DNA of 46,788 nt from Pseudomonadota bacterium (lineage in GTDB: Bacteria > Pseudomonadota > Gammaproteobacteria > Xanthomonadales > Xanthomonadaceae), in assembly GCA_018242465.1 (NCBI GenBank), contig JAFEBY010000061.1:1-46788 (forward strand), written 5' to 3'. Below the pieces are notes generated by a model. The model was not told the DNA's origin. It saw nothing but the letters and a program-made list of their open reading frames with translations, and made no database searches. The position numbers and the translations under genes are program-made. Each line of letters starts with the position of its first letter. Within the stretch, counting starts at the first letter, position 1. Shown piece after piece: positions 38,421 to 46,788 of this stretch.

Positions 38421-39821
38421 TCACACCGTACGCGAGAAGCGCGGGGTCGCCACCTGGGCAGTCTGGTCGAGGTAACGATCGAAGCACATCGCAATGTTAC
38501 GCAACAGCAGGCGTCCGTGCGATGTCACCGTGATCCGCCCGGATTCGATCCGGACCAGGCCATCGCGCTCCAAGGGTTCCAGCCGCTGCAACGCATCGGC
38601 GAAATAGCGGGTGAAATCGATCGAATGACGCCGTTCCAGCGCGTTCACCGGGATCTCGCCCTGGCACATCAGCGACTGGATCAGGTCGGCACGCAATTGG
38701 TCGTCCTGGCTCAGGCGCATGCCGCGGAAGACCGGCAGGCGGCCCTCGTCCAGCGCGGCCTGCCAACCCGCGAGATCACGCGGGTTCTGGCTGAAGCTGT
38801 CGCCGACATGGCTGATCGCACTCACGCCCAGGCCAATCAGGTCGCTGTCGGCGTGCGTGGTGTAGCCCATGAAATTGCGGTGCAGGCTGCCGTGGGCCTG
38901 GGCAATGGCGAGGTCGTCGTCGGGCAGGGCGAAATGATCCATGCCGATGTAGCTGTAGCCGGCGGCGATCAGTCGGGTGATCGCCAGCTGCAGCAACGCC
39001 AGTTTGCCCTGCGGATCGGGGAGGTCGGCAGGATGGATCCGCTGCTGCGGCTTGAACAGATGCGGCATATGCGCGTAGCCATAGACGGCAATGCGGTCGG
39101 GACGCATGTCCGTAACGGTATCGAGCGTCTTGCCGAATCCCTCCAGCGTCTGCTTGGGCAGGCCGTAGATCAGGTCGACATTGACCGAGCGGAAGCCGTG
39201 CGTGCGGCAGGCATCGATCACCGCACGGGTTTCCTCCACGCTCTGGATGCGATTCACCGCCGCCTGCACGTCCGGATCGAAATCCTGCACGCCGAAACTC
39301 GCGCGGTTGAAGCCGATCTTCGCCAGTTCGGCGATGTCTTGCGTCGACACGAAACGCGGATCGAGCTCGATGGAGATGTCGCGTTCCGGCGAATCGGAGA
39401 AATGGAAGTGGCTGTGCAGCGTGCCGACCACTTCCCGCAACTGCTCCGGGGTCAGGAAGTTCGGGGTGCCGCCGCCGAAATGCAGCTGGATCACCTCGCG
39501 GTCGCGGTCGAACAGTTGGGCGGTCAGGGCGATTTCCCGATACAGCCGCGCCAGGTAAGTTTCGGCGCGGGCATGGTCGCGGGTGATGATGCGGTTGCAG
39601 CCGCAGTAGAAGCACGGACTCTCGCAAAACGGCACGTGCACGTACAGCGACAGCCGGCGCGGGATCGGGTCGCCATTGCTGGCGATCGCGGCATCGCGCA
39701 GTTCCGCCTCGCCGAAATCCGCCCGGAATTGCGGTGCGGTCGGATACGAGGTGTAGCGCGGCCCAGGCCGGTCGTAGCGACGCAGCAAGTCGGGATCAAA
39801 GACGATGGTGTTGGCGGCCAT
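38421..39821 (-). CDS. hemN: Oxygen-independent coproporphyrinogen III dehydrogenase
   Basis: A 466-aa radical SAM enzyme making protoporphyrinogen IX without O2. It begins MAANTIVFDPDLLRRYDRPG and has PRYTSYPTAPQF, the cluster motif CESPCFYCGCN (C-x3-C-x2-C-x-C), HFGGGTPNFLTP and ELDPRFVS, all typical of true HemN. The ATG at 39821 coincides with the predicted transcription start from the FNR promoter, so the mRNA may be leaderless. It supplies haem for cbb3 and NO reductase under low oxygen and is followed by fnr. Confidence 0.96.
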   Translation of the reverse strand: MAANTIVFDPDLLRRYDRPGPRYTSYPTAPQFRADFGEAELRDAAIASNGDPIPRRLSLYVHVPFCESPCFYCGCNRIITRDHARAETYLARLYREIALTAQLFDRDREVIQLHFGGGTPNFLTPEQLREVVGTLHSHFHFSDSPERDISIELDPRFVSTQDIAELAKIGFNRASFGVQDFDPDVQAAVNRIQSVEETRAVIDACRTHGFRSVNVDLIYGLPKQTLEGFGKTLDTVTDMRPDRIAVYGYAHMPHLFKPQQRIHPADLPDPQGKLALLQLAITRLIAAGYSYIGMDHFALPDDDLAIAQAHGSLHRNFMGYTTHADSDLIGLGVSAISHVGDSFSQNPRDLAGWQAALDEGRLPVFRGMRLSQDDQLRADLIQSLMCQGEIPVNALERRHSIDFTRYFADALQRLEPLERDGLVRIESGRITVTSHGRLLLRNIAMCFDRYLDQTAQVATPRFSRTV

Positions 39822-39933: not shown

Positions 39934-40008
39934 GGGCGGTTAGCTCAGCGGTAGAGCATTGCCTTCACACGGCAAGGGTCGCAGGTTCGATCCCTGCACC
40001 GCCCACCA
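39934..40008 (+). tRNA. tRNA-Val (anticodon CAC)
   Basis: A 75-base tRNA with CCA encoded. The acceptor GGGCGGT pairs with ACCGCCC. The anticodon stem TTGCC/GGCAA encloses TTCACAC, giving CAC. The T-arm carries GGTTCGATCC. It marks the border between the GC-rich chromosome and the AT-richer, IS-laden segment, so it is a candidate integration site. Confidence 0.95.
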
Positions 40009-40200: not shown

Positions 40201-40455
40201 CTAGGAGCGATCTCCCACACGCACCTTTACTTGAGCCAACTCTCTAAGCACCTTCAGGAGCTGCTTCCGTTTCCTGGTGGGCAATTCCGCCATCAGTTTG
40301 ATGGCTTCGGCGATATCCCGATCTTCTGCAATCAGTGCAGCCGCCGGCACATGAAGCATTTCGGCCAGCCGCTCCAATTCATCGAGATTGGTTCCACTCG
40401 CACCCGACTCGTAGCGATTGATGCGCGCACCCTTGTTGCTGCCCTTCAGACCCAT
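40201..40455 (-). pseudogene. XRE-family regulator lacking its N-terminus
   Basis: The remaining 84 codons from an ATG read MGLKGSNKGARINRYESGAS, then NLDELERLAEMLHVPAAALIAED and a helical tail. This matches the second half of an XRE helix-turn-helix domain (recognition helix and RYESG turn), but the first two helices are missing. Upstream sequence is the 3' end of an IS3-type transposase on the opposite strand, so an IS event probably replaced the N-terminus. A longer frame to 40527 exists only because it reads through the IS fragment antisense. The product is unlikely to bind DNA normally. Confidence 0.7.
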
Positions 40456-40465
40456 GGCTGTGCCC

Positions 40466-40597
40466 AAGGAGCACTGGCTATGGACGTATAACCACGAACG
40501 CCCCAACATGGCACTCGGCGGCATCACACCGATGCAGAAGTTGGCGCTCGCCGCTTAGCTCCACTTCCGCAGTCAGTTAAAAAGGGGGGGATTACCA
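40466..40597 (+). mobile_element. IS3-family remnant: transposase C-terminus and right end
   Basis: From about 40466 the plus strand encodes HWLWTYNHERPNMALGGITP followed by MQKLALAA and a TAG at 40556-40558, the characteristic end of IS3-family OrfB including the last catalytic-region residues. About 40 bases later GGGGGGATTACCA probably marks the right terminal repeat. The rest of the element is absent. It abuts the truncated XRE gene. Confidence 0.75.
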
Positions 40598-40654
40598 TTC
40601 TACTTTGTGTGGCAGGCTACTTTGGTGTTGTTCAATTGCTTGGGGTTTTTGCTG

Positions 40655-40865: not shown

Positions 40866-41072
40866 TCAGTTGAGCCGGCTAGGGCTACTACACAATAAAT
40901 AAATACATACAACAACGCATGAAATTGCTGCACCCAGACAAACCCCTGCGCAAAAACTTGAACTAAATCCAAGCAATAATTTTTGTGATGCGAGGGTGTT
41001 GAACCAAAAAGCCATCATTAAAAAACAAATTGTTGCTAATGATGCGATAACTACTTTAAGCTGCTGACTCAT
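40866..41072 (-). CDS. Small two-helix Cys-rich membrane protein, last gene of the M50/aminotransferase operon
   Basis: A 68-aa protein beginning MSQQLKVVIASLATICFLMM. It has two hydrophobic helices (about 5-27 and 38-62). The second contains four cysteines at helical spacing (CAGVCLGAAISCVVVCIYLLC region). A GAGGG lies upstream of the ATG, and the gene starts 33 bases after the permease stop. I recognise no family. Position at the end of an export operon suggests an immunity or transport accessory protein; a hydrophobic precursor peptide is a weaker alternative. Confidence 0.5.
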   Translation of the reverse strand: MSQQLKVVIASLATICFLMMAFWFNTLASQKLLLGFSSSFCAGVCLGAAISCVVVCIYLLCSSPSRLN

Positions 41073-41105
41073 AACTGAATAGCCCTCAAAAGTTTAAGGT
41101 CGTTA

Positions 41106-42422
41106 TTAATTTTGACGTAGCCATCGAAGCAACTCAGCCCAACTTGGCTTTTTGCCATACATCAATATACCTGTTCGATAAATCCGCGCCGCGATCCAGA
41201 TTACCGCCAATAGTGCGACACACATTATGACTAACGATGCGCACAACTGACCGATGGGAACTGCCGTTAACGACGAACGCACCGGCATCAGGAATGGCGA
41301 GAAAAATGGCACGAACGACAGCACCTCGCCAAGCCCACCCGTGGGGTTTTTAATTGCCACGAATATAGAAACAAAGCCGATCATTATAAGGAGGGTGACC
41401 ATTACCGCGTATTGCTGGGTTTCCTGCACTGTGTTGCAAATCGCACCAATGGCAGCATAAAGCGCTCCATACAACAAGAATCCCAACGCGAAATACAACA
41501 AAAAAACGAACAGAAGCTCAGGTTGCATTGCTGGGATTGGAAAACTTTGGAGCGCATCGGGGCTTACATTGAACAATTCTGCAATGCGCATCCGCTGACT
41601 GGTCAACACAAAGACGGTGCTTCCCCAAATTGCCATTTGTAGCAGACCTGCCATGCCGACCCCTATTACCTTCCCGAGCAGCATCTGAAATGGCGTCAAT
41701 GACGACACCAATACTTCCATGATACGAGAAGTCTTCTCCTCGACCACAGACGTCATAGTTTGTTGTCCATAAAGCATGATTGAGAGGTAAAGCATAAAAC
41801 CCATGAAATAAGCAATCATGAATGCTGCCGCACCACTTTGGCCTGTCAGCTTGCCTTCTGACACCTTGATAGTTTCAAGACGTGTCGGCATAAACGCCTG
41901 CTCAATCGCGTTTTCACTAACTCCTGAACTCGATAATCTAGCCGCAGTCAGAATACGACCAAGCGACTGCTCAAGTTTTGACATCGATTCTATCGAGCCA
42001 ACGTTGCTCCCAAAATAGTCTACCTTTCCATCAGAAATGGATGCGTCAGTTACAACTAGCACCCCATCCCAAGAATTTGAAGGTGATTCGTCTGAGAACC
42101 CTGTGCGTGCAACTAGACGTCCACGCACGCCGTCAATGTTGTTGTCTGCGGGAAATAACGAGACGTCATAACGTGGCGTCTTGGCGTGCGGTGAATCCAG
42201 CGATTCACTTTTTAATTGACTTGCAATCAACTTCCCAACGCCGGAAGCACTGCCATCGACTAACGCCAGGCGCATGGTTCGATCACCACCACGCAGCAGA
42301 AGCATCGGAATAACAGAAAATGAAATGATTAATACGGGCAATAGAATTGTAGAAATAATGAACGCTTTTGTTCTGACGCGCTCAACAAATTCCCGCCGAA
42401 TAACAGCTATCACCCTATTCAT
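41106..42422 (-). CDS. ABC-2 type transporter permease (NatB/YhaP-like)
   Basis: A 438-aa permease. It begins MNRVIAVIRREFVERVRTKA with a first helix (FIISTILLPVLIISFSVIPM), a long extracytoplasmic domain (about 45-215), then five helices. The motif SVVEEKTSRIMEVLVSSLTPFQMLLGKVIG is typical of NatB-type Na+/drug/peptide exporters. It starts 8 bases inside the end of the ATPase gene. The codon use is AT-richer than in the chromosomal genes. Within this operon it probably exports or excludes the mature product. Confidence 0.88.
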   Translation of the reverse strand: MNRVIAVIRREFVERVRTKAFIISTILLPVLIISFSVIPMLLLRGGDRTMRLALVDGSASGVGKLIASQLKSESLDSPHAKTPRYDVSLFPADNNIDGVRGRLVARTGFSDESPSNSWDGVLVVTDASISDGKVDYFGSNVGSIESMSKLEQSLGRILTAARLSSSGVSENAIEQAFMPTRLETIKVSEGKLTGQSGAAAFMIAYFMGFMLYLSIMLYGQQTMTSVVEEKTSRIMEVLVSSLTPFQMLLGKVIGVGMAGLLQMAIWGSTVFVLTSQRMRIAELFNVSPDALQSFPIPAMQPELLFVFLLYFALGFLLYGALYAAIGAICNTVQETQQYAVMVTLLIMIGFVSIFVAIKNPTGGLGEVLSFVPFFSPFLMPVRSSLTAVPIGQLCASLVIMCVALLAVIWIAARIYRTGILMYGKKPSWAELLRWLRQN

Positions 42423-43371
42423 GAGCTTCTCCGGTACGAGTTGCAACAGATGCTTCTTCACCGACTTTCGCAATAAAAATTGTATTTAGTGAAGGCTCCA
42501 CAATCTCAAATCGCCTTAGGCTAATGTTTTCATTCACTAAGCGATGAAGCAACTCGTCCGAAGACGCTCCAGGCGCCAACTGCAACTCAACGGTTGCACC
42601 ATAGTGATCAAACTTATCTACAAGCTGCCTATCAGATAATATCGAATCTGCCCGCTCTCCTCCGTGGTTAAAACCAAGCGCGATATGAGACCCTCCAAAA
42701 TCCGATTTCACCTGCGCTACTGAGCCGTGTAAGACCAGTTTCCCGCGGGCGATAATTGCAATTTGGTCGCACATCCGCTCTGCTTGTTCCATCACATGCG
42801 TAGAAAGCACAACAGTTTTACCCTCCTTGGCAACATCCACCACAATATCTTTCATCACCTGGGCATTTACGGGATCCAGCCCCGCAAATGGCTCGTCGAG
42901 GATCAGTAAATCTGGGTCGTGAACCAAGGCTCCGGCAAACTGAACTTTTTGCTGCATGCCCTTTGAAAGATCTTCAACTTTTTTTCCTGTCCATTCACCG
43001 ATTCCTAACCGATCAAGCCAAGCATGAGCACGTCCTTTTGCATCTGCTCGCGAAAGCCCACGAATTTCAGCCAAAAATAATAGATGATCAAAGACACGCA
43101 TTTTTTTGTAAAGGCCCCGTTCTTCTGGCAAATAGCCCACCCGATGGGAAAAGTTTCGTCCTCGGGATGCGGAACCAAACAAGGAAATTGTTCCCTCATC
43201 AGGCTTCAAAATATCCATAATCATGCGAATTGTGGTTGATTTTCCCGCCCCATTCGGGCCTAGCAAGCCAAACACTCCACCAGATGGAACGCTTAACGAA
43301 ACTCCATTTACTGCCACATGGTCCGCGAATCGCTTCGTAATCCGATCAAGATTTATGGCTGCCACTGACAT
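42415..43371 (-). CDS. ABC transporter ATP-binding protein (NatA-like)
   Basis: A 318-aa ATPase. It has Walker A LLGPNGAGKST (about 38-48), signature DLSKGMQQKVQ, Walker B LLILDEPFAGLDP and switch His in VVLSTHVMEQAE, followed by a C-terminal extension of about 100 residues typical of NatA/DrrA-type ATPases. AAGGTG at a good distance supports the ATG at 43371 over a GTG three codons earlier. It follows the SDR gene by 65 bases in which I see no gene, and overlaps the permease. Confidence 0.92.
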   Translation of the reverse strand: MSVAAINLDRITKRFADHVAVNGVSLSVPSGGVFGLLGPNGAGKSTTIRMIMDILKPDEGTISLFGSASRGRNFSHRVGYLPEERGLYKKMRVFDHLLFLAEIRGLSRADAKGRAHAWLDRLGIGEWTGKKVEDLSKGMQQKVQFAGALVHDPDLLILDEPFAGLDPVNAQVMKDIVVDVAKEGKTVVLSTHVMEQAERMCDQIAIIARGKLVLHGSVAQVKSDFGGSHIALGFNHGGERADSILSDRQLVDKFDHYGATVELQLAPGASSDELLHRLVNENISLRRFEIVEPSLNTIFIAKVGEEASVATRTGEAHE

Positions 43372-43436
43372 AGAATTCACCTTAACGATATTGCGAATAT
43401 ATTAAAAAGTGTGCACGAGGGGATTTAGATCGAAAC

Positions 43437-44207
43437 TCAGTGCGCGGTCCAGCCCCCATCTATAAGCAAATTGTGCCCGGTAACCATCGCTGCCGCGGGC
43501 GATGCAAGATAGCAAATTCCCGCCGCCACCTCGGTTGGCGTTGCAGCGCGACCAAGCAATACGCCCTGCTGAATTTGCTGTTTGAATTCTGAATTCTCAA
43601 TCAAGTGGCGATTAGTCTCATTTTCAACAAATGTAGGACTTATTGCATTCACACGAATGCCGAATTCAGCCCATTCAATTGCCAGTGCGCGAGTGAGATT
43701 AATTAGCCCTCCCTTGCTTGCGCAATATGGGGCGCGCATTCGATTTCCCACGACGCCATGCTGTGAGGCAACATTAATAATGCAACCTCGTTTTTGGTCA
43801 ACCATAATCGCCGCCGCCGCTTGAGAACACAAGAAAGCACCCTTGAGATTTACATTCATTACTTCATCAAATTCTTCTTCGTCAATATCAAGGGCTGCCT
43901 TGAATAACTGCGTGCCAGCATTGTTCACCAATATATCTAGTGTGCCAAAGTGAAGTTGGACCTGGCTCATAACATGCGAAATTGTCATCGACGCACGGAC
44001 ATCTAAAGAGATGGCCATAGCTTCTACTCCACCTCCAGATAACTCTTCAACTAAAGATTTTGTTAAGTCTCCCCGACCTGCTAATTCCGTTACTGCTACT
44101 TTAGCCCCATGTGCTCCAAGCGCTTTTGCCGTGGCTCGACCAATACCAGACCCGGCACCTGTAACCAAGGCCACCGCTCCTTTCAAGTCAAACATAGATA
44201 CAGTCAT
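43437..44207 (-). CDS. Short-chain dehydrogenase/reductase
   Basis: A 256-aa classical SDR. It has the cofactor motif VTGAGSGIGRATA (about 15-27), NNAG (about 92), the active-site Ser in INVASQHG, YCASK as Y-x3-K (about 160-164) and a C-terminal GHNLLIDGGW. The acidic residue after strand 2 is replaced by TELAGRG, so NAD/NADP preference is unclear. The ATG overlaps the aminotransferase stop (ATGA). Next to an aminotransferase, it may oxidise an alcohol to the carbonyl that is then aminated. Confidence 0.9.
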   Translation of the reverse strand: MTVSMFDLKGAVALVTGAGSGIGRATAKALGAHGAKVAVTELAGRGDLTKSLVEELSGGGVEAMAISLDVRASMTISHVMSQVQLHFGTLDILVNNAGTQLFKAALDIDEEEFDEVMNVNLKGAFLCSQAAAAIMVDQKRGCIINVASQHGVVGNRMRAPYCASKGGLINLTRALAIEWAEFGIRVNAISPTFVENETNRHLIENSEFKQQIQQGVLLGRAATPTEVAAGICYLASPAAAMVTGHNLLIDGGWTAH

Positions 44208-45460
44208 GCAATGTATCCCGATATAACGTCCCGCAGAATTTCAAGCATTTCTTCAACTTCATCGTCTGATATGGTCAGCGGCGGAAATAGGCTAATTCCG
44301 GAATCAAAGCTATACACAAGCAACCCCTCTTCTTGACAACGCATACGCACTTGCTGAGTCTCCAGCTCAGTAAACAATCTCTTGTCAGGATATTCGTGCG
44401 ACAACTCAATACCGATCATTAGCCCCATGCCGCGAACCGAGATCGCGCCGCGTTCACCGGCTAATGCTGTCAGTTCAGAACGTATCCTATGACCTAGTGT
44501 TTCTACACGATCAAGCAGGCCTTCTTCTGCCACTATGTCCAATGCAGCCAGCACCGTGGCGCACCCAACGGGATTACCATCCTGGGTACTACCAAACTGG
44601 ATCGGAATATTTGCTCTTTGAATTGGTAGGCATGTGCTAGCTGAGAATAAGGTAGCCCCCACCGGGAAATAGCCTGAATTCAGCCCCTTAGATAGCGTAA
44701 TAATGTCCGGCTCAAGTGAAAGAAGGTTAGATGCGAACATGGATCCGCAACGACCGCCCCCTGTGGCCACCTCATCCACAATCAGTAACACATCGGCATT
44801 TCGGCATAACTTGGTAACTGTCTGGCAATATTCGGGCGAAGGAACAATGATTCCTCCAGAGCCAAGTATTGGCTCCATAATTAAACAAGCAATTTCGCCT
44901 GCATCCTCGCGCAATAGCCGTGACAAGCACTCTAGCGATGATGATTCATCTAGAGGCGAAGGAATTAGCTGAAAACCCGGCAATATTTCATCCCACTTCT
45001 CGACATCACCACGAACAATCCCGCTTGCAGACAAATTCATAGCGGAACACCCATGATAGGAACGATCAAAACTCAAAATCCTCTGCTTTGATGAATGCCC
45101 ATTTGCCCGATGATGTAGGCGCGCAACCCGTAACGCCACCTCCACGGCGGAAGTCCCAGACGTTGAGAGATATACAAATTTCATCGAGCCAGCAGAGAGC
45201 GAAATCAATCGCTCCGCTAATAGTTCCGCTGGCGTATGAGTGGAATCAAATAGAGACGCATAAGCCATGTTCCGCATCTGCTGACACACGCGCTCAATAA
45301 TCTTATCGTTCCCCAAACCCAACGAGAGATTCCAAAGACCGCCGACTGCATTGAGATAACGCCTTCCCGCGGAATCAGTAACGTAGGCGCCTTCCCCCTG
45401 AGCTAGTCGCAGAGAAGCTGGCACGCCTGGGACAGCGTATGGACGCCACAGCGCGCTCAC
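44204..45460 (-). CDS. Class III (omega-type) PLP aminotransferase
   Basis: A 418-aa fold-type I aminotransferase. Landmarks are GEGAYVTDSAGRRYLNAVGG near the N-terminus, STSGTSAVEVALRVAR (phosphate site), FDRSYHGCS, LLIVDEVATGGGRCG (PLP-ring Asp) and LSKGLNSGYFPVGATLFS with the Schiff-base Lys. It resembles omega-transaminases acting on ketones or terminal aldehydes. The start is GTG overlapping the protease stop (GTGA). Its place between a peptidase and an SDR, away from amino-acid or biotin genes, argues for a role in a specialised product. Confidence 0.9.
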   Translation of the reverse strand: MSALWRPYAVPGVPASLRLAQGEGAYVTDSAGRRYLNAVGGLWNLSLGLGNDKIIERVCQQMRNMAYASLFDSTHTPAELLAERLISLSAGSMKFVYLSTSGTSAVEVALRVARLHHRANGHSSKQRILSFDRSYHGCSAMNLSASGIVRGDVEKWDEILPGFQLIPSPLDESSSLECLSRLLREDAGEIACLIMEPILGSGGIIVPSPEYCQTVTKLCRNADVLLIVDEVATGGGRCGSMFASNLLSLEPDIITLSKGLNSGYFPVGATLFSASTCLPIQRANIPIQFGSTQDGNPVGCATVLAALDIVAEEGLLDRVETLGHRIRSELTALAGERGAISVRGMGLMIGIELSHEYPDKRLFTELETQQVRMRCQEEGLLVYSFDSGISLFPPLTISDDEVEEMLEILRDVISGYIA

Positions 45461-46653
45461 TGAACCGAATCCATTTGGTAGAAAACGCTACGTAAATACG
45501 TAATTCCTTTTGTAACCGCACGACAAATTAATGGCAGTGCAAATAGAGTTACCACAACTATAGCCAACGTGCTAGACAACTTCGCCAAATAGCGATAGGC
45601 ACCGAACATACCCAGTGCCCAAAACGCGGGTACAGCCAGCACATGACCAACCCCAAACACGGTCACCGCTCTTCTATATGGAGTGCTTTTGCCTAAAGAA
45701 CGGCCAACCAATTTTCTAAATTTCAAATCGACGGATTTCAACCCCTTCTGTTGAAGTTGCGGCTCATCAAGCAGATGAACCAAAATCCAATAACCATCTA
45801 ATTTGACAAAAGGGAACAAGTTATAGACCGCCAAAACAAGGTTAATTGTTGCAAAAATTAGCAATACAGATCCACCAAAAAACAAAAAAACAACTGCAGT
45901 TAGTGCAGCCAAAATTAGCTGCAAAGCAATGCCTGCAGCCGCTACCGTTACTTTTTCACCCACCTCGCGAAATCGCCAGCTGTCACTGACATCACAATAC
46001 ATAACAGGTTGAAAATACATTAGCATTAAGCCAATTTTTTCAACCTTGCCACCAAAGTGCTTGCAGGCTATAGCATGTGCCATTTCGTGCAGCACATTCA
46101 TCGCCAAAAGACCTACGTACAAACCAAGCCAGTTCCAGCCCGACATTGCTGGATTGAATCCTGTCATAGCTCGGCTCACCGTGGTTGGCGATACAATTAG
46201 CACTGCTATCGGTAAAAAAATAAGACCTAGGTAGATCGCAAGGGCCGGCACTGAGAACAAGGCATTCACAACATTCAAATGATTGTCTAGAAATCGGTTT
46301 GGCGATCCCAATTTGAAGCGCCATTTCCGAGTATCTGCAACAAATCCCGCAACACGACTCAACGCGCTTTTTTTTACCAAATTAATTGGTGTAGGCAGGC
46401 CGGCAAGTAGCCGCTTTTCTGCAAACCAAGCAAGTAAGTATTCAACTTCATCGTAGTTGAATTCGAAACCATTTTCCCTACTAAGCAGTTCAGGGTTTCG
46501 ACTCCCATCTAATGATTCCAGAAAGCCTGCCTCGCGTATCCCTAGACGAAAGTATTCGCGAGTATCAGGTTTGTGGACGATTCTCGTATTACCATTAGCA
46601 GAGTCGATCACCACCCCGGGATCAATACAGGGATTGTTAATTGTGAGATTCAC
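45457..46653 (-). CDS. PqqD-like domain fused to M50 (site-2-protease-like) metalloprotease
   Basis: A 398-aa protein. The N-terminal ~95 residues (HKPDTREYFRLGIREAGFLE, YLLAWFAEKRLLAG) resemble the PqqD/RRE-like winged domain that binds leader peptides. The rest has six or so helices with the zinc motif VLHEMAHAIACKHFGG (HExxH near residue 188) and FPFVKLDGYWIL with the third-ligand Asp (near 281), as in peptide zinc metalloproteases of YydH type. The start is a GTG with only a weak AGG upstream; the frame stays open into the IS, so the true start is not certain. Confidence 0.85.
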   Translation of the reverse strand: MNLTINNPCIDPGVVIDSANGNTRIVHKPDTREYFRLGIREAGFLESLDGSRNPELLSRENGFEFNYDEVEYLLAWFAEKRLLAGLPTPINLVKKSALSRVAGFVADTRKWRFKLGSPNRFLDNHLNVVNALFSVPALAIYLGLIFLPIAVLIVSPTTVSRAMTGFNPAMSGWNWLGLYVGLLAMNVLHEMAHAIACKHFGGKVEKIGLMLMYFQPVMYCDVSDSWRFREVGEKVTVAAAGIALQLILAALTAVVFLFFGGSVLLIFATINLVLAVYNLFPFVKLDGYWILVHLLDEPQLQQKGLKSVDLKFRKLVGRSLGKSTPYRRAVTVFGVGHVLAVPAFWALGMFGAYRYLAKLSSTLAIVVVTLFALPLICRAVTKGITYLRSVFYQMDSVQ

Positions 46654-46664
46654 GTTATTTATGT

Positions 46665-46788
46665 TGACCTGAGACGAAACGTGTAGCCATTTTGATGGTG
46701 AGTTCTCTACCCTAGGAAGGCAAGGAGAACTCCATGAAGAAGCGCTTTACCGACGAACAAATGATTTTGATCCTGCGCGAAGCCGAGA
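46665..46788 (+). mobile_element. IS3-family element, 5' end (continues outside window)
   Basis: The right edge holds the start of an IS3-type insertion sequence. Its OrfA begins at 46734 after AAGGAGAAC. The left end probably lies near TGACCTGAG at 46665, about 12 bases upstream of the divergent protease start; the exact boundary needs the other end. It separates the protease operon from whatever lies to the right. Confidence 0.7.
46734..46788 (+). CDS. IS3-family transposase OrfA (N-terminal fragment)
   Basis: Eighteen codons are visible, MKKRFTDEQMILILREAE, the typical first helix of the IS3 OrfA helix-turn-helix protein. A strong AAGGAG precedes the ATG by about 7 bases. The gene runs off the right edge, so completeness is unknown. 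Confidence 0.85.
   Translation, partial: MKKRFTDEQMILILREAE

Follow-up and report, generated by a model that had tools for sequence, protein, structure and literature searches.

Daptides are a class of ribosomally synthesised and post-translationally modified peptides (RiPPs) whose first description dates from 2023 (PMC10036551), with reconstitution following in 2025 (PMC12338566). DapB together with DapC generates a ketone, DapD converts the ketone to an amine and DapM methylates the amine, with a protease stated to cleave the leader (PMC12338566). Clusters of Bacillota are reported to combine an oxidoreductase of the PF13561 family with a class III aminotransferase and a protease carrying a RiPP recognition element (RRE) (PMC10036551). 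One cluster, with three precursors, came from Pseudomonadota among the 483 clusters of the 2023 survey (PMC10036551), and the phylum is not named in the main text of the 2025 paper, which covers 1,034 clusters (PMC12338566). How, then, does a locus from a member of the Xanthomonadaceae compare with these systems? The locus in question lies at positions 40866-46653 of the window, by which is meant the whole stretch of DNA analysed, 46,788 nucleotides that form an entire contig (C97; JAFEBY010000061.1) of an assembly (GCA_018242465.1) of 2.52 Mb in 139 contigs that is 87% complete.

Very probably, the genes dapP-dapD-dapC-dapT1-dapT2 of this locus form the downstream portion of a daptide cluster of the short-chain dehydrogenase/reductase (SDR) type that arrived by horizontal transfer, and are parted from dapA, dapB and dapM by an insertion sequence (IS) of the IS3 family. 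An initial annotation had held that this gene set matches no class that can be named, a view that does not survive comparison with the Bacillota clusters, which have the three enzymes listed above (PMC10036551); the class is already published and the window holds a new, truncated member of it rather than an undescribed class. The open reading frame (ORF) list gives six minus-strand ORFs across the locus, and the five intact enzyme and transporter genes among them are closely spaced.

45457..46653, minus strand: dapP, RRE domain (approximately residues 1-85) and M50 intramembrane-type protease (NF041824, PF02163, RRE fold)
44204..45460, minus strand: dapD, class III pyridoxal phosphate-dependent aminotransferase (PF00202, NF041821)
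43437..44207, minus strand: dapC, SDR-type oxidoreductase (PF13561), putative oxidative decarboxylase partner
42415..43380, minus strand: dapT1, DrrA-like ATP-binding cassette (ABC) exporter ATPase (PF00005 and PF13732)
41106..42422, minus strand: dapT2, ABC-2 permease (PF12698)
40866..41072, minus strand: hydrophobic ORF of 68 amino acids (6 Cys), separated by 33 bp from the end of the permease gene, a candidate member at most

The packing of six minus-strand genes with overlaps of 4-8 bases, as first annotated, was recovered: protease and aminotransferase overlap by 4 bp, aminotransferase and SDR by 4 bp, and ATPase and permease by 8 bp when the permease is read from the ATG at 42422, a better start than that of its full ORF (41106-42473). 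The gap between SDR and ATPase is 56 bp. In a Pfam scan of the six proteins, PF02163, PF00202, PF13561, PF00005 with PF13732, and PF12698 all exceeded their curated cut-offs.

The best NCBIfam match of the protease is the daptide intramembrane metalloprotease, NF041824, at 248 bits (cut-off 300), a score that by itself confers no class membership; the protease of a complete cluster in Massilia also scores below the cut-off (275.5 of 300 bits). The residues H189-E190-H193 and L285-D286-G287, representing the HExxH and LDG motifs, are invariant in all 16 aligned rows (alignment A2, covering 15 of 18 related protease loci, with L003, L007 and L008 left out), and the protease profile matches the zinc metalloprotease MJ0392 of M. 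jannaschii (3b4r) with an E value of 1e-5. AlphaFold models of the protease (16 rows) and of its residues 1-89 (14 rows; alignment A3, with L003, L007, L008, L013 and L017 left out) have a mean predicted local distance difference test score (pLDDT) of 84.0 and 81.5, respectively. In the predicted structure the N-terminus has the fold of an RRE, its top Foldseek matches in the PDB being TbiB1 with leader peptide and heterocyclases including TruD. The shorter, 89-residue model also matches the PbtF RRE, and its first matches outside RiPP enzymes, to a carbamoyltransferase, appear at ranks 18-19 with a probability of 0.97.

For the aminotransferase, the daptide model NF041821 (daptide_amino) is the top match of 69 families, at 317 bits (cut-off 450), and the Massilia aminotransferase is likewise below this cut-off, at 306 bits. 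Its S257-K258 pair is invariant in 13/13 rows (alignment A4, covering 12 of 13 aminotransferase loci; L006, which gave a two-frame match and of which only pieces were searched, was left out). The SDR matches PF13561 at 211 bits together with many other dehydrogenase models, so that its role is assigned from the genes around it and from its relatives. Within it S148-Q149-H150, R158, Y161-C162 and S164-K165 are invariant in 15/15 rows (alignment A5, covering 14 of 15 SDR loci; L016 left out); the His of SQH and R158 were not seen in five aligned PDB segments, and by sequence these two residues may be markers of the lineage. On the exporter side, ATPase relatives with 35-43% identity occur in 12 of the 18 loci, all in Bacillota, and permease relatives in 10.

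These 18 loci come from a pattern-based scan for the protease across genome contigs of 84,980 species, which returned 48 stretches, 18 of them encoding a protease relative. Their gene content was determined by tblastn, with matches counted at E 1e-4 and above 40 bits and with the DapB and DapM queries taken from Massilia. An SDR relative is found in 15 of the 18 and an aminotransferase relative in 13, because of which the association of these genes is held to go beyond chance; this is the co-occurrence that the initial annotation had suggested looking for. Relatives of the Massilia methyltransferase occur in 12 loci and of the Massilia DapB-like protein in 10, Massilia included in both counts. 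The closest of the 18 loci are those of Massilia sp. ST3 (L001) and Duganella sp. Leaf126 (L002), where P-D-C is preceded by precursors, dapB and dapM. In Massilia the genes run from YcaO through three precursors and a 687-aa DapB-like protein to DapM, P, D and C, with a fourth precursor further on, and DapM matches NF041820 at 176 bits, just above the cut-off of 175; in Duganella two precursors, recognised by pattern, are followed by B, M, P, D and C. In unrooted trees of P, D and C, built with members from these loci alone and hence showing grouping among loci rather than class boundaries, the window, Massilia and Duganella fall on one side of a branch with support of 100/99, 100/100 and 100/100, respectively. 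The YcaO gene adjoins the precursors in the Massilia locus (L001:4576-5898), and imidazoline-forming actinobacterial daptides likewise have a YcaO, as the 2025 paper reports (PMC12338566).

The precursors of the relatives share a leader motif resembling LExxEAP (LPxxKAP/KSP in Duganella) and a C-terminal Thr. A pattern of leader motif, hydrophobic core and C-terminal Thr, designed after the Massilia and Paenibacillus peptides and therefore not independent for those loci, matched 12 ORFs in five of the 18 loci, with no hit in shuffled sequence (925 kb) or in other loci (170 kb). Short ORFs of the kind that the initial annotation proposed to look for exist in these five loci, and in the other 13 the pattern found none. 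With precursors in relatives, a predicted RRE fold on the protease, and daptide models as the top NCBIfam matches of both protease and aminotransferase, the earlier RiPP reading is upheld, and a daptide-like conversion of a carbonyl to an amine is favoured by sequence comparison. The 68-residue Cys-rich ORF was considered as a precursor and rejected: it carries no leader motif, its last residue is Asn, and none of the 18 loci contains a match to it (E 1e-4, above 40 bits). It belongs to no Pfam or NCBIfam family; the small Cys-rich protein noted in the operon is present as an ORF and is no more than a candidate member of the cluster.

The borders of the locus carry IS sequences and, on the left, a tRNA gene, as follows.

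46665..46788, plus strand: left end of an IS3-family element, with terminal repeat TGACCTGAGACG from comparison with a Burkholderia copy; orfA starts at 46734 and the element runs off the contig
40474..40610, strand not assigned: ISXac2-like IS3 fragment at the left border of the low-G+C stretch, with the C-terminus of orfB in a plus frame
39934..40008, plus strand: tRNA-Val (CAC), its 3' end marking the limit of DNA similarity to the two closest congeners

The IS3-family element starts 11 bp upstream of dapP, and the contig contains its first 124 bp. This end shares 78.9% identity with an IS3-family element annotated in Burkholderia ambifaria, and two other contigs, C90 and C24, end in stretches of 122-127 bp that are 99-100% identical to it. 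The nearest relatives of the IS and of the locus point to Burkholderiales. We read three contig ends in the same IS as an assembly break within a repeated element. Between the two IS elements the G+C content is 47.4%, against 64.7% at positions 1-39900. The two closest congeners, whose HemN proteins have identities of 97% and 91%, cease to match at no more than 10 bp from the tRNA-Val 3' end; in a third congener (G013) similarity ended near window position 39793, and no tRNA was present in the 12 kb examined. From these borders we infer a foreign island adjoining a tRNA gene. A repressor-like helix-turn-helix ORF (40201-40527), RstR-like below the cut-off, starts inside the IS fragment.

What has become of the upstream genes? 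Of the components of a daptide cluster the protease, aminotransferase and oxidoreductase are present, and DapB, Thr-ended precursors and DapM were not found. Their absence from the window is explained by the IS and the contig end, which cut the cluster, and as the contig ends in the IS where the relatives have DapB, the locus is filed as a fragment and not as a complete cluster. The initial annotation was right that the window has no methyltransferase gene, in that none is among the six, and wrong to count this as a class mismatch, for the closest relatives, L001 and L002, carry dapM directly upstream of dapP. The precursor pattern has no match in the window. In the assembly, which is incomplete and offered no positive control for these searches, DapB was unmatched both by the Massilia protein (E up to 1) and by an eight-row profile (E up to 10); the best match to the DapM model reached 45.5 bits (cut-off 175; Massilia DapM 176), a level attained in 14/14 control genomes with none above the cut-off; and no convincing precursor emerged, the best match (E 0.065) lying inside a 487-aa frame. 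Loss of A, B and M is likely, not proven. These same results count against the idea that the cluster is complete and functional, with dapA, dapB and dapM beyond the IS or in unassembled sequence and the IS merely parting two halves; we consider this rather unlikely, while acknowledging that all five genes are intact and that, in an assembly of this completeness in which three contigs break in the same IS, the upstream genes could be unassembled. An attempt to trace the other half through the IS, in which the 3' part of the Burkholderia element matched C49:1-168 (76%), was abandoned, as the 1,668 bases of this contig that were examined hold no dap-like ORF by eye, and agreement of a 3-bp flank (TGT) between C49 and the window is too short for pairing.

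A number of observations weigh against placing the fragment among the daptides. Both protease and aminotransferase score below the NCBIfam daptide cut-offs; a non-daptide aminotransferase model comes close (297 vs 317 bits); the SDR has no daptide-specific model among its NCBIfam matches and exceeds the cut-off of a generic model, NF005559 (glucose 1-dehydrogenase), at 225 vs 215; the Massilia and Duganella loci have no permease relative; and with no precursor pattern in the window and no DapB, DapM or convincing precursor found in the assembly, production by this copy is at most hypothetical. The RRE fold matches have a probability of 1.00 but E values between roughly 1e-3 and 1e-2, all of them above 0.001, and the PF05402 (PqqD) profile has no sequence match anywhere in the genome, so that of the PqqD-like domain first proposed for the M50 protease the predicted RRE fold stands and the sequence match does not. 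Could the enzymes instead serve a distinct but related RiPP pathway, in which RRE-protease, aminotransferase and SDR are reused on other peptides with no methylation? The scores below the daptide cut-offs and the lack of a methyltransferase among the six genes would fit, as would L003, L007 and L008 (Acidobacteria and Paenibacillus xylaniclasticus), three of the 18 loci that have the protease relative with neither SDR nor aminotransferase relatives, implying that the protease is used in other settings; however, P, D and C each group with the Massilia and Duganella clusters, which hold DapM relatives and Thr-ended precursors, and we judge such a pathway improbable. Still less credible is a small-molecule operon for an amino sugar or amino alcohol beside an unrelated protease. 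Class III aminotransferases and SDRs are indeed common in small-molecule pathways, and the closeness of other class III families and the generic dehydrogenase score are what such an operon would give, but the neighbourhood is conserved with an RRE-protease, a DapB-like protein and short peptides, and the six genes include no sugar or polyketide family.

The distribution of the protease was also surveyed. It was found in 0/16 congeners, and a search of relatives' genomes gave weak matches in 10/198 other genomes (E 2.8e-11 to 4.7e-18); in the order sample no close relative at E 1e-40 was present in 397 other genomes. Matches in 28/368 other genomes of the class sample were rejected as close relatives, their open frames being 540-837 aa against about 400. 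Among these, L044-L062 are longer M50 proteins with open frames of 540-749 aa. A plasmid search with the protease gave 70 records, all with query coverage under 80%; the best matches were from Streptomyces, with mpaP annotated on four of the first five, and several plasmid homologues carry HlyD or biotin/lipoyl-binding annotation, which suggests that the longer M50 proteins are M50-adaptor fusions.

By analogy with the described systems, the daptide fragment would belong to a pathway that puts an amine in place of the terminal acid of a small peptide active on membranes. DapB would bind the leader of the precursor and, together with DapC and NAD(P)+, would oxidatively decarboxylate the C-terminal Thr to a ketone, which DapD would transaminate to an amine for methylation by DapM. 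The RRE-protease DapP would then cleave off the leader and T1T2 would export the peptide. The cluster on its own is probably non-producing; for this copy to yield a product, A, B and M would have to survive elsewhere.

The DapB-like proteins of related SDR-type daptide loci, none of them encoded in the window, were compared at the following positions.

L001:7102-9165, DapB-like protein
L002:7145-9169, DapB-like protein
L004:5659-7902, DapB-like protein
L005:4967-7348, DapB-like protein
L011:5872-8133, DapB-like protein
L012:2035-3117, DapB-like protein
L013:10718-11815, DapB-like protein
L014:1598-3826, DapB-like protein

Their alignment (A6) covers eight of the 10 loci with a DapB-like relative, L006 and L018 being left out; two of the eight, L012 and L013, are short frames (about 360 aa). 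Eight Cys are invariant in all eight (C466, C474, C493, C526, C529, C535, C538 and C550 in Massilia numbering), an arrangement that we take to resemble the SPASM domain motif, and the radical S-adenosylmethionine (SAM) motif CxxxCxxC occurs in none. Profile matches are to SPASM TIGR04085 in one of the eight (E 0.0019), to the radical SAM maturase TIGR04148 in three (best E 0.0018) and to daptide_RRE in one (E 4.2e-5). The C-terminus aligns with the lasso RRE TfuB1 (E 0.0014), and a match to the radical SAM sactipeptide maturase 5wgg (E 0.64) is non-significant alone. The one Streptomyces DapB compared (L082, 360 aa), which is paired with a PF00465-type DapC, has no Cys, unlike the DapB-like proteins of the SDR-type loci, and aligns over the same region with an hhalign probability of 72.7. 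A literature search for DapB and SPASM together gave no paper naming both among the matches listed. Tentatively, and with more doubt than belief, it can be proposed that the SDR-type lineage, of which the window would be an IS-split member, uses an iron-sulfur DapB with a SPASM-like Cys cluster, a C-terminal RRE and no radical SAM motif, such that Thr decarboxylation may need an Fe-S protein.

The locus thus adds a likely Pseudomonadota daptide locus, in an unusual host, to the one recorded in the 2023 survey (PMC10036551), and it suggests that the pathway both spreads horizontally and decays. The Massilia and Duganella clusters look intact, which makes them candidates for Gram-negative daptides, and it is their DapB that raises the Fe-S question.

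With respect to known systems, the window protease is similar in its M50 part to the epipeptide protease YydH/LiaK (NF058609, 59 bits against a cut-off of 225). Epipeptide (yyd) clusters have a radical SAM epimerase beside the protease; as the six window genes include no radical SAM gene and the NF058609 score is far below the cut-off, an epipeptide reading was rejected. The daptides of Actinomycetota (mpa of Microbacterium paraoxydans; Streptomyces plasmid NZ_CP108489.1, L082) share with the window the RRE-protease, aminotransferase, ABC exporter and overall logic, but their DapC is a homologue of Fe-type alcohol dehydrogenases (PF00465) where that of the window is an SDR (PMC10036551). The Bacillota-type clusters, in the 2023 paper (PMC10036551) and in L004 (Paenibacillus tritici), L005 (Ruminiclostridium hungatei) and L006 (Paenibacillus sp. 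P25), are like the window in their RRE-M50 protease, class III aminotransferase, PF13561-like oxidoreductase, DrrA-type ATPase and ABC-2 permease, with identities of 25-47% and a different gene order; L004, L005 and L006 carry Thr-ended precursors, whereas the window has no precursors, DapB or DapM. Massilia and Duganella, which group with the window in the three trees, have the same P-D-C order, the identity to Massilia and Duganella, respectively, being 71-72 and 61% for the SDR, 54 and 47% for the aminotransferase, and 42 and 34% for the protease. They differ from the window in that precursors, DapB and DapM (in Massilia YcaO as well) lie immediately upstream and that some 700 bp separate D from C, and their ATPase relatives, only 26-35% identical, lie elsewhere in the locus.

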